This document shows, piece by piece, positions 44,957 to 47,942 of a stretch of 64,000 nt of DNA. The notes below the pieces were generated by a model. That model saw nothing but the letters and a program-made list of their open reading frames with translations, was not told where the DNA came from and searched no databases. Source of the stretch: Halopseudomonas sabulinigri (GTDB lineage: Bacteria; Pseudomonadota; Gammaproteobacteria; Pseudomonadales; Pseudomonadaceae). How positions within the stretch are numbered: position 1 is the stretch's first letter; the number at the start of each line of letters is the position of its first letter. Both the position numbers and the translations under genes were made by a program. The stretch is from the NCBI RefSeq assembly GCF_900105255.1, contig NZ_LT629763.1:2418001-2482000 (forward strand), written 5' to 3'.

Positions 44957-45122
44957 ATTGAAATTGGCCCCTCAAGAGGCCGAATGCCCATCAGACCACG
45001 TCGCCGCATTCGGGTTCTAGCCGGCCTCGGAAAGCAGAGCAAGGCGCACGCATCAAAGGCATACATAACCGCCCCCAAGCTATACGCGTCAGTGAGCAGC
45101 GGCCAGCAAATTGATCCAGTGG
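44957..45122. other. Left flank of cassette array, no gene
   Basis: 166 bases without a credible gene. The right part (45063-45122) contains most of the candidate third attC; the left part is chromosomal flank and probably the promoter/leader of the YdjM-like gene. Confidence 0.5.
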
Positions 45123-45128
45123 TTAACT
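45063..45128 (-). repeat. Candidate degenerate attC site of cassette 3
   Basis: On the minus strand the R'' box AGTTAAC (45128-45122) is the exact reverse complement of this cassette's own 5' core GTTAACT (45409-45403), as expected for a once-circular cassette. A possible R' box GTTATGT (45069-45063) deviates from GTTRRRY at one position, and pairing between the inner arms is weak. Left boundary is uncertain. Confidence 0.45.
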
Positions 45129-45395
45129 GGCATTGGCAAATACCCCTGACTGTATTGATAGTAACCACCCAGTAAGCACCAAAATACATAGGCCTTGAAA
45201 CACCACTGCGTACTTTGCCACTTGGTGTGTATAGGCACGCCTTGCATTGAGCAGGAACATTAGCGGCAAGACAACAAACGTGACTAAGGAACCCATAGTA
45301 GGCATACCGACTGAAGGCGTAAGCGGTGACAGTAAACCGACCCCAAATATAAAGAAGGCAAGAACATTTCCAATGACGGCTAGTGCTTTACTCAT
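45123..45395 (-). CDS. Small membrane protein, integron cassette gene
   Basis: A 90-residue hydrophobic protein (MSKALAVIGNVLAFFIFGVG) with three likely membrane helices (about 5-25, 33-50 and 60-82) and a short basic loop (NARRAYTHQVAKY). No recognised family. It starts 7 bases inside the core site of the preceding attC and its TAA stop lies within the candidate R'' box of its own attC, the compact layout of a mobile cassette. Function unknown. Confidence 0.65.
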   Translation of the reverse strand: MSKALAVIGNVLAFFIFGVGLLSPLTPSVGMPTMGSLVTFVVLPLMFLLNARRAYTHQVAKYAVVFQGLCILVLTGWLLSIQSGVFANAS

Positions 45396-45402
45396 TTTTG
45401 AT

Positions 45403-45486
45403 AGTTAACGCCCTTAGCACGCGCGGCTTTGTAGTGGAGGCGCAGCCGGAACGAAAAAGCCGTCGCTGTGCCTGCGATTGTTAGCG
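45403..45486 (-). repeat. attC site (cassette 2)
   Basis: On the minus strand: R'' box CGCTAAC (45486-45480), a foldable interior, and R' core GTTAACT (45409-45403). Inner arms pair, for example ACGGCTTT with AAAGCCG, and L-like boxes GGCACAGCG and CGCGCGTGC are partly complementary. R'' differs at one base from the reverse complement of the cassette's 5' core GTTAGCC. Length 84 bases. Confidence 0.75.
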
Positions 45487-45489
45487 ATT

Positions 45490-45918
45490 TTACACCCACT
45501 GATTCTCATAGATTGTTCTTCGTAGAGCCCTAGCCGCGAACAAGGCCATTTCTTCTAGCTCTCTCTCGGCCTCCTCCGGCGTGTCGATAAGCCCCTGATC
45601 ATCCCAAGGGTCATTCACATGAACCCACTTATTCCGATATTTTCGAAGTATGTGCAGGTCAGAGCGAAGATCGTCTGCTATGGGCGCATCATTGATAAGT
45701 TCAAAAAGTGTGCTCCGCTCTTTCTTGACGTACTCCGAACGCAGATAAGTTTCGATCCCGGAAACAGCTGTCAGTATCGATGCCAGCTTTGCACCATGCA
45801 CAAAGGCAGAATCAGATTCGCGGACAATGAAAGAGCACCATTCCGAGAGAATGCCCCCGCCTTTCAAAAGCCCCTCATCAAGGGACAAAATGTGGTTCCA
45901 ACGCTCGGCTTCATTCAT
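45490..45918 (-). CDS. HEPN-like domain protein, integron cassette gene
   Basis: A 142-residue all-helical acidic protein starting MNEAERWNHILSLDEGLLKG. The segment LHILRKYRNKWVHVNDPWDD carries R95-X4-H100, the RX4-6H signature of HEPN domains, many of which are RNases in toxin-antitoxin and defence systems. An upstream helix (AKLASILTAVSGIETYLRSEYVKKE) fits the four-helix fold. No MNT nucleotidyltransferase antitoxin is encoded beside it. It starts 3 bases beyond the attC core, as cassette genes often do. RNase activity is an inference; it could be a non-catalytic HEPN. Confidence 0.65.
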   Translation of the reverse strand: MNEAERWNHILSLDEGLLKGGGILSEWCSFIVRESDSAFVHGAKLASILTAVSGIETYLRSEYVKKERSTLFELINDAPIADDLRSDLHILRKYRNKWVHVNDPWDDQGLIDTPEEAERELEEMALFAARALRRTIYENQWV

Positions 45919-45920
45919 AT

Positions 45921-46015
45921 GGCTAACGCCTCAAACACCGGCTTGGTGAAGGTGGCGGCTTTTTTTGGAAAAAGATGACAGCTTTACCAAGTCCGCGTGC
46001 TTTGACTTGTTAAGT
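45921..46015 (-). repeat. attC site (cassette 1)
   Basis: On the minus strand: R'' ACTTAAC (46015-46009), L'' TCAAAGCACGCGG, inner arm ACTTGGT, then the other inner arm ACCAAG, L' CCGGTGTTTGAG and R' core GTTAGCC (45927-45921). L'' and L' are complementary apart from extra G bases on one strand, the extrahelical-base hallmark of attC. R'' is the exact reverse complement of the cassette's 5' core GTTAAGT at 47222-47216. Length 95 bases. Confidence 0.88.
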
Positions 46016-46016
46016 T

Positions 46017-46751
46017 TCAATCTGCCCAACGTGTACTATATGAATGTTCTTGGCAATACTTATACATTCCCTCGTACCCGTGAATCCCTCTTCTTGTGAG
46101 TTCTTGGTGTATTTCTCGTTGAATAATCACACCATTATTTATATCTAAGGCCAACATAGGGTTTGTAACCACGCTTTCAATATGTGCAAACTCGACTTCT
46201 GCTCGATTATTGAAAGGAATACCTGTAAATTCACAAGACGTAATATTGTACTCAGCAATACGTTGTGTTTTTAGCAGTGGTCGATTATTTCTAATATCTT
46301 CCAGAAAGAGATCTTTTAAATCTCTAACTTGAGATAGATTCAATATTCTTTCGTATGATTGCATTGCAATCATTAAATATTGCCTTGTCCTACCTGCAGT
46401 CAAGCTTATTCTAGTATCGATCAACCCCCTCAGGGTTGGCCCAGAGATATGCTCAACGCCATCGATCTCAACAATTTCTGAAGCACTAATAATTCCAGGG
46501 ATGCCTTGGTAAATCAAAGGCCTTTCAGCACCTGAATTACCAGTGCGCAATATTGTAGAAAGACCGCTAACTTTCAGATATGGAATTCCATTTACGCAGA
46601 TTTTAGTATTTACGAAAAATGCATTCACGATTGCAGTTATATGACCTGCATTCAATACTTCAGAAGCGGCATTTAACACTAAATCCAGTTCATTTTGTTC
46701 AGTAAGTTCACTTAATGGGTGATATACAACCGCTGGTAGGTTCTGTGTCAT
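46017..46751 (-). CDS. HNH nuclease-like protein, integron cassette gene
   Basis: A 244-residue protein, AT-rich unlike its surroundings. The C-terminal part reads SCEFTGIPFNNRAEVEFAHI then LDINNGVIIQREIHQELTRRGI. C173, T176-G177, H190, N205/N206 and H215 are spaced as in HNH endonucleases of the HNH_2-like type (C..TG, AHI, NG, H). The N-terminal 150 residues (LKVSGLSTILRTGNSGAERPLIY and others) are unrecognised and may sense or bind a target. Its ATG overlaps the stop of the J-domain gene as ATGA, so the two are translated together. Defence against phage or plasmids is my inference from nuclease plus cassette context. Confidence 0.6.
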   Translation of the reverse strand: MTQNLPAVVYHPLSELTEQNELDLVLNAASEVLNAGHITAIVNAFFVNTKICVNGIPYLKVSGLSTILRTGNSGAERPLIYQGIPGIISASEIVEIDGVEHISGPTLRGLIDTRISLTAGRTRQYLMIAMQSYERILNLSQVRDLKDLFLEDIRNNRPLLKTQRIAEYNITSCEFTGIPFNNRAEVEFAHIESVVTNPMLALDINNGVIIQREIHQELTRRGIHGYEGMYKYCQEHSYSTRWAD

Positions 46752-47173
46752 GCTTTACCTACCATTCTGTTGTATATTTTGTTGATGTAGCTTGTTATTT
46801 CATCATAATCAAGAGAGGTATCTCCTTGGTTCTTATCAGGATGAAATTCTTTAGCTAGTTTTGCTTTCCACTCCTTAGCAGCAACCTTATCAATGTAGTG
46901 CTTTTTCGTAATGCCAAGCTCTTTGTCAAAAACTCCCTTTTCATGTTTTTTAAGAAGAAATGCAAGCTTACGCTTTTCAGAAATGAAGTATTTATCCTTT
47001 GAATAAAACTCAACACTTTTTCTATATGAATCAATCACCTTAAGGAGATCTTCCTTTCGGTCAATGGTTAGTAATCCTTCAAGCCCTAACTCTTTAGGTA
47101 CTAGTATTCTTAATTCTTGAAAGCTTTCTTCCAGCTTATCGCTATCCATCAATAGCCACGAAAATTTTTCCAT
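46748..47173 (-). CDS. Protein with C-terminal J domain (DnaJ-like), integron cassette gene
   Basis: A 141-residue protein starting MEKFSWLLMDSDKLEESFQE, rich in Lys and Glu. Residues about 92-139 read as a J domain: KVAAKEWKAKLAKEFHPDKNQGDTS with HPD at 111-113, followed by helix III DYDEITSYINKIYNRMV. Helix I is less clear. The J domain is at the C-terminus with no Gly/Phe or zinc-finger region, so this is a type III J protein that may recruit DnaK to its partner, the coupled HNH-like protein. Composition is markedly AT-rich, supporting acquisition. Confidence 0.7.
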   Translation of the reverse strand: MEKFSWLLMDSDKLEESFQELRILVPKELGLEGLLTIDRKEDLLKVIDSYRKSVEFYSKDKYFISEKRKLAFLLKKHEKGVFDKELGITKKHYIDKVAAKEWKAKLAKEFHPDKNQGDTSLDYDEITSYINKIYNRMVGKA

Positions 47174-47942
47174 CTTCTTTTCTCTTTGTGAGTTGCGTAA
47201 CCTTACCCATGAAAACTTAACAGCTTACTAGACCGACGGCTTTATGATTGCATATCAGTGACTTCTGCATATCAACGCTCCTCGCCGCCGGCAGGTTATT
47301 GAAAATAGCTTTAAATTCAGTGGCTTGGTCATAAGCACCCAATCACCAGTTGTATTCTCGTGACTTCCGCATTTTGTGCGGTCAATAACACTGTATGAGA
47401 TGCAATGTTTCATACTTTGCTGCAGCTCGACGCTGCCACGCGGGCACAAGAACGCGCCTGGGTGGGCAAGCAAGCAGGTGCTGGAAAGCATGGGATTGGG
47501 GGCGGGCATTCTGCCTGGGGGCGAGATGCTTCTGGGTGCTGTAACACTGCGCGCCATCCTTGGGCTCCTGTAATCGGCTCATTGCCGTTCATCGAAAGTA
47601 GCGCCATATCGGTGCGCGGTAAAGCGAATGCTGCTCCGAACCTTACCTCTGCGCCGTCGATTTTCCCGGATGCGTATCGGCGCTCTATGCCGCGTTACAC
47701 CGCACGCGCGGCCCCTTTTGTAGTGCCTTTCACGTTATCACTACAATTTTGCATACAAAATCTGCCATTTTTTGTACACAATATGCGACCTGCTCCACCT
47801 GACTAGCTGCTCACTTTGGTTATTGCGCTGTTTGCGCATAGCCCTGTGAGCGCAGGGGCGGAACAAAAAGTGCAAGCGCAACCGGTATGGCTGTAGCACC
47901 TGGCCATGCATGGCAAACACAACAAGACGCAAGGAAGGGCCC
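47174..47942. other. Non-coding flank upstream of cassette array
   Basis: About 770 bases without a convincing gene on either strand; short frames here do not look protein-like and no tyrosine-recombinase (IntI) motifs were found. The left end has the cassette 1 core site and an AT-rich promoter-like leader. Repeats GCATATCA at 47251-47258 and 47268-47275, and GTGACTTCTGCATAT (47259-47273) versus GTGACTTCCGCATTT (47361-47375), are present. The region may contain a remnant attI or lost integrase, and it should contain the promoter for the permease. Confidence 0.5.
47216..47222 (-). other. 5' core recombination site of cassette 1
   Basis: GTTAAGT on the minus strand fits GTTRRRY exactly and is the reverse complement of the R'' box of the attC at 45921-46015, marking the 5' boundary of the first cassette. 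Confidence 0.7.

Follow-up and report, generated by a model that had tools for sequence, protein, structure and literature searches.

A conserved gene pair for a J-like protein and a predicted HNH nuclease, carried on an integron cassette of Halopseudomonas sabulinigri

Toxin-antitoxin-chaperone (TAC) systems, of which CmdTAC is an example, use SecB-like chaperones, and the CmdT toxin modifies mRNA. Here we describe the computational analysis of a two-gene unit in a 64,000-nucleotide stretch of DNA from Halopseudomonas sabulinigri (contig NZ_LT629763.1, positions 2,418,001 to 2,482,000; hereafter the window), in which a gene for a J-like protein (J) precedes a gene for a predicted HNH nuclease (H). 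This J-H unit is proposed to act much as TAC systems do: a chaperone-type protein devoted to the task would keep a toxin in check, and a phage that diverts the chaperone would set the toxin free. It differs in its components, a predicted HNH nuclease with a J-like partner, and in having two genes and no third antitoxin.

HNH proteins are also found in Septu PtuAB, as retron-associated subunits and as the Cap5 effector of cyclic oligonucleotide-based anti-phage signalling systems (CBASS). In the 15 loci examined here the partner of H was J-like (15/15) and not a PtuA-type ATPase, and an assignment to Septu was rejected on this ground and for want of a PADLOC match. As to CBASS, neither J nor H had a PADLOC match and no cyclase model was present among the 25 of 34 neighbour families listed. 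Overall, PADLOC-DB 2.0.0 returned 0 matches for J and for H at E values up to 10. The literature searched, by titles and the starts of abstracts and with incomplete coverage of integron defence and TAC systems, describes no system combining a J domain with HNH, nor do passages of PMC3710099, PMC13092281, PMC7159879, PMC12753305, PMC7824862, PMC9122126 and PMC12409362. A previous sequence-only reading of this DNA, which knew of no named system of such composition, is borne out within these searches.

J and H as a conserved pair

The sequence-only reading had described two open reading frames (ORFs), the first with an HPD tripeptide and the second with the C-x2-TG, AHI, NNG and H pattern of HNH endonucleases; both ORFs, which lie on the minus strand, and all of these residues were located as described (Table 1). 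J is read first and H second, and the two genes overlap. The 15 loci included five viral contigs and one of nine plasmids. J adjoins H in 15/15, with a 4-bp overlap in 14/15, window included; the exception is locus L008 from Epulopiscium, where a gap of 427 bp separates the genes. Loci L008 and L009 have two H copies each, and in L007 the H gene is broken. A pattern of mostly solitary H genes was not seen in these loci, and the homologues are not the singletons whose discovery would have spoken against a paired function.

Further comparisons were consistent with this pairing. The same five contigs came up whether viral contigs were scanned with H or with J, and a scan with the short form of J returned four of the five; no J-only or H-only contig was among the matches. 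Since the J alignments already contained rows from these contigs, the informative part of this result is the absence of a J-only contig. When H and J rows were paired by equal size in bp of their source, 15 links were obtained (one J occurring twice), against 0-4 at offsets of 1-7 bases. Distances in the J core and in H were correlated (r 0.874, 24 pairs, 0/2000 permutations as high), as calculated from 12/15 loci (L007, L008 and L017 omitted) and 12/15 size-matched links; this correlation reflects joint inheritance rather than contact, and shared ancestry alone can suffice to produce it. Judged from these sequence comparisons, the J-H pair is a conserved unit, with a distribution from Pseudomonas and Vibrio to Epulopiscium.

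The motifs of H are CEFTG at residue 173, AHI at 189, NNG at 205 and H215. C173, H190, H215 and C233 are conserved in 113/113 rows having the respective column, and N206 in 114/114. The AlphaFold2 model (predicted local distance difference test, pLDDT, 86.6) has a predicted HNH fold, in which H190, N206 and H215 supply the catalytic H, N and H of the superfamily; the HNH assignment of the sequence-only reading was upheld by this predicted fold and by the invariance of the catalytic residues among homologues. Among described families, H resembles HNH_2 (PF13391) in its C..TG, AHI, NG and H pattern, but H has T219 where most HNH_2 rows have D. A profile of the H C-terminus aligned to 13 HNH_2 proteins with a probability of 48.8% and an E value of 1.8e-4, compared with 0.22-0.5 in controls; this comparison used 25/30 Bro-N loci and 13/19 HNH_2 loci, contig edges, one row with an internal stop and weak matches having been omitted. 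HNH_2 itself gave no match at E up to 1 in 40 members (0/40); set A1 comprised 40 of the 114 homologues. One of the two H genes of the Epulopiscium locus (L008, 5088-5861) encodes Y where the catalytic H190 would stand, and its product is possibly an inactive partner.

The J-like protein matches phrog_17986 (E 3.2e-8); a search with it found 19 homologues, and one with a short-form J profile found 48. Its Pfam DnaJ score of 16.9 bits lies below the curated cut-off of 27.8, and we therefore call it J-like instead of filing it as a DnaJ member. DnaJ is nevertheless the Pfam family matched by 22/33 of its relatives (best E 9.8e-4), and 9/13 of its PDB profile matches are DnaJ proteins, at E values of 0.047-0.49, none of them significant. 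In the AlphaFold2 model (pLDDT 89.2), predicted helices 96-110 and 123-138 flank the HPD, the arrangement expected of a J domain. The C-terminal J domain proposed from the sequence alone is supported by this model and by the relatives, while the Pfam score of the window protein falls short. The N-terminus varies among relatives, with forms of 106-112, 141 and 217-225 amino acids and a 363-amino-acid fusion. In locus L003 (4913-6004) a long N-terminal extension, which contains Cys pairs and matches nothing in Pfam, is joined to the J core and is possibly an alternative sensor.

F63 and H92 of the J core are invariant (82/82 rows), whereas HPD is present in 67 of these rows, HPE in 3 and neither in 12. 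A tree was built from 74/82 rows, with eight loci omitted, three of them exact repeats of other rows and only one of the eight (L007) lacking HPD. HPD or HPE is present in 63/74 tree rows; the remaining 11 are made up of 10 in one supported clade (99/98) and one singleton. The named members of the HPD-less clade are Vibrio, and the clade includes the plasmid copy L017. Nearly all rows outside it retain HPD despite wide divergence, a pattern that would fit a DnaK-dependent step in most lineages and its loss in one.

Table 1 Coordinates of the features discussed (window positions unless a locus is given)
Feature	Position	Strand	Basis or detail
Predicted HNH nuclease H, 244 amino acids	46017..46751	minus	114 homologues
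HNH domain, residues 156-244	46020..46286	minus	predicted fold
H190, predicted general base of HNH	46182..46184	minus	H in 113/113 rows having the column
J-like protein, 141 amino acids	46748..47173	minus	variable N-terminus, C-terminal J-like core
HPD codons, residues 111-113	46835..46843	minus	sequence
ATGA shared by the J stop and H start codons, 4 bp	46748..46751	minus	ORF coordinates
J-H gene cassette, 1294 bp	45927..47220	minus	G/TT boundaries at 47221 and 45927
attC of J-H cassette	45921..46015	minus	fold energies and shuffle control
Second cassette	45409..45926	minus	ORF 45490-45918 (142 amino acids), attC-like end ~45402-45483
Possible third cassette	45069..45408	minus	ORF 45123-45395 (90 amino acids); AGTTAAC / GTTAACT complement
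E. coli prophage genes between cI and integrase	L080:4276-6060, L030:5171-5974, L081:4191-5162		KAP NTPase, TIR-like or unassigned

Mobile settings of the pair

In the window the pair occupies an integron cassette, the first of two or three in the minus-strand reading. The R'' sequence of its attC, ACTTAAC, is the exact reverse complement of GTTAAGT at the opposite end of the cassette (47221), which is what a circular cassette requires and so argues that the cassette is real. The attC folds more strongly on the bottom strand (about -25.5 to -25.6 kcal/mol) than on the top (about -17.1 to -17.3 kcal/mol), as an integron cassette should, and a scan for attC sites recovered it with 0 hits in five mononucleotide shuffles. 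The AT-rich cassette of the sequence-only reading was likewise recovered, the J and H ORFs having a G+C content of 36.6% compared with 61.8% for the window.

The genomic contexts of relatives were read at 14/15 loci (L007 omitted), with 1/9 plasmids and 5/20 E. coli matches. In L005 the order is an integrase-like gene (by reading), Hp1, Hp2, Hp3, J, H and SduA, the pair being flanked by gaps of 41 bp and 192 bp; Hp1-3 reportedly form a tested defence system. In L003 a NADAR-DarT1 antitoxin and DarT are adjacent, followed by PDC-M41B/M30. In L004 mREase_II shares an attC-like array with J-H, and the unit ends in an attC-like site. In L019 HsdR lies 4.6 kb away and a gene of the integrase family directly precedes J, and L023 has a PD-T7-3-like gene at 2 kb. 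On the plasmid of L017 a SIR2 gene (PDC-S25) lies 0.36 kb away. Nine Vibrio/Photobacterium plasmids carry an H copy at equal identity to the query, and 9/9 are conjugative. The L017 pair also lies near a NERD gene, with sul2 and mef(C) at a distance of 12-14 kb.

In five prophage-type loci (L006, L013, L021, L022 and L023) a cI-like gene lies directly before J, and in all of these except L021 an integrase-like gene comes next after the pair, which places it between the two; the cI and integrase identities are Pfam-confirmed in L006 only. This slot corresponds to the cI-integrase hotspot of defence systems in P2-related prophages, which Rousset et al. (PMC9122126) describe for Vibrionaceae; neither DnaJ nor HNH appears in the main text of that paper. 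The corresponding slots in E. coli, taken from five of 20 matches to the flanking cI gene, were empty in two cases and held a KAP NTPase (PDC-S49), a TIR-like gene and an unassigned gene in one case each. By reading of the neighbours, L008, L009 and L025 have no defence gene.

A proposed mechanism and its alternatives

We put at about an even chance the explanation that J-H works as a two-part unit whose J-like member holds the predicted HNH nuclease inactive and releases it, probably via DnaK in most lineages, to cut DNA upon infection. Coupled translation would give a J-H complex at birth, in which the J core, through a surface that may include the invariant F63 and H92, would bind H. The HPD would then recruit DnaK, and DnaK would keep H latent. 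Diversion of DnaK by a phage, or a signal sensed by the variable N-terminus of J, would free H, which would cut DNA during phage infection. In the HPD-less clade J may simply bind H as an inhibitor or adaptor. Dependence on DnaK/DnaJ is a feature of several well-studied phages, and a nuclease leashed to these chaperones would, if the proposal is true, sense infection at a step that phages find hard to avoid. J-H is compact (1.3 kb) and mobile. The proposal would also assign roles to a pair of protein families that lie below all Pfam and NCBIfam cut-offs and match no PADLOC model.

Two observations weigh against parts of this explanation. L017, the sole copy of the HPD-less clade examined (1/9 plasmids), retains a full-length H, so that J-H pairing does not depend on HPD, and the clade counts against the DnaK step as a universal rule. 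For the DnaK switch suggested by the sequence-only reading, HPD or HPE in most tree rows speaks in favour, and the loss in 10/74 speaks against its generality. PADLOC families, moreover, were not enriched around the pair: at a threshold of E<=1e-8, 34 were counted in 117 neighbour ORFs, and 54 control ORFs from the window gave 22, although 10/22 control families bear DEAD-box helicase or SNF2 descriptions and another is related to PolA. Co-occurrence with defence islands, a check that the sequence-only reading had suggested, was found at several loci, among defence genes or in a hotspot of published type, and not in these counts. Cassette status itself raises the prior for defence only modestly, as PMC12409362 reports anti-phage activity for some 10% of the integron cassettes of V. 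cholerae (at least 16/179).

The same gene order could be that of a toxin-antitoxin module, with H as a DNase toxin and J as its antitoxin, which would be retained chiefly through the harm done by cassette loss, so stabilising cassettes or elements, and would affect phages only secondarily. A small gene first, a toxin-like gene second, the 4-bp overlap and carriers that are mobile (integron, plasmid, prophage) would all suit such a module, as would the HPD-less clade, which suggests that J is able to work without DnaK. A plain antitoxin, however, would not need a J-like core with HPD or HPE in 63/74 rows, nor does this explanation account for J-H lying in the slot flanked by a cI-like and an integrase-like gene, or with Hp3 on one side and SduA on the other; we hold it to be somewhat unlikely. 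A nuclease for DNA processing or entry exclusion by mobile elements, directed against plasmids or competitors and with J as a folding partner instead of an infection switch, is quite improbable in our estimation: the occurrence on conjugative plasmids, in prophage-type loci and in integrons agrees with it, but it explains the chromosomal defence-type neighbourhoods no better than phage defence does. We consider it very improbable that H is a selfish HNH gene or homing endonuclease next to which J lies by chance. Although an HNH fold is predicted and the L025 copy lies directly before a minor-tail/tape-measure-like gene, J accompanies H at every locus examined, J and H distances are shared, and the unit is closed by an attC in the window and by an attC-like site in L004, though no search for introns or inteins was made.

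Returning to the DnaK-gated nuclease, a bolder form of it, which we think rather unlikely, would place J-H in a class of immunity that has no name as yet, with the host Hsp70 machine itself made into the phage sensor by a J protein devoted to that role. DnaK-J would clamp the HNH nuclease, capture of the chaperone by a phage would fire it, and one clade (named members Vibrio) would have dropped the DnaK handle for a chaperone-free latch. If so, the HPD-keeping and HPD-less clades would form a natural before-and-after pair. In sum, the observation made in the sequence-only reading is confirmed and its interpretation partly supported.

Neighbouring cassettes and related loci

The second cassette of the window encodes a 142-amino-acid protein with an R-x4-H motif (RNKWVH), a DUF3644 model match at E 0.014 and no relevant PDB match; R-x4-H is the HEPN RNase motif, and the protein is presumably HEPN-like by this motif. 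The attC-like end of this cassette is below the thresholds of the attC scan, but window positions 45392-45474 share 83% identity with part of the corresponding locus in the relative G161. The attC fold of the possible third cassette (45069..45408) was unsupported.

In 3/21 same-genus genomes searched (G000 included in the 21) both flanking genes are adjacent at other spacings. In G161 homology resumes at window position 47218, the edge of the cassette, and other ORFs occupy the site, including one for a TIR-type protein. At this locus (L109) the TIR-type protein (1481-1864) is followed by a 276-amino-acid protein (1868-2698) with apparent membrane segments by reading; the two are likely to be a two-gene TIR cassette.

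No integrase adjoins the array of the window. The genome has two PF13495 matches, of which one is IntI-like and lies at a distance of about 1.1 Mb, and the other, about 113 kb away, is XerC-like judging by gene order; because both lie far off, the array is an orphan cassette cluster. The IntI-like gene is at G000 C1:3583708 (L001, L018), with one attC-like site nearby. About 8 kb from it, at C1:3591902 (L087), lies a paralogue (51% identical) of the 177-amino-acid flanking gene of the window, so that both integron sites have this type of flanking gene nearby. Finally, in the phage-type contig L025 (6001-7163) the position of J-H directly before the tail-type gene is unlike that at the other loci read.
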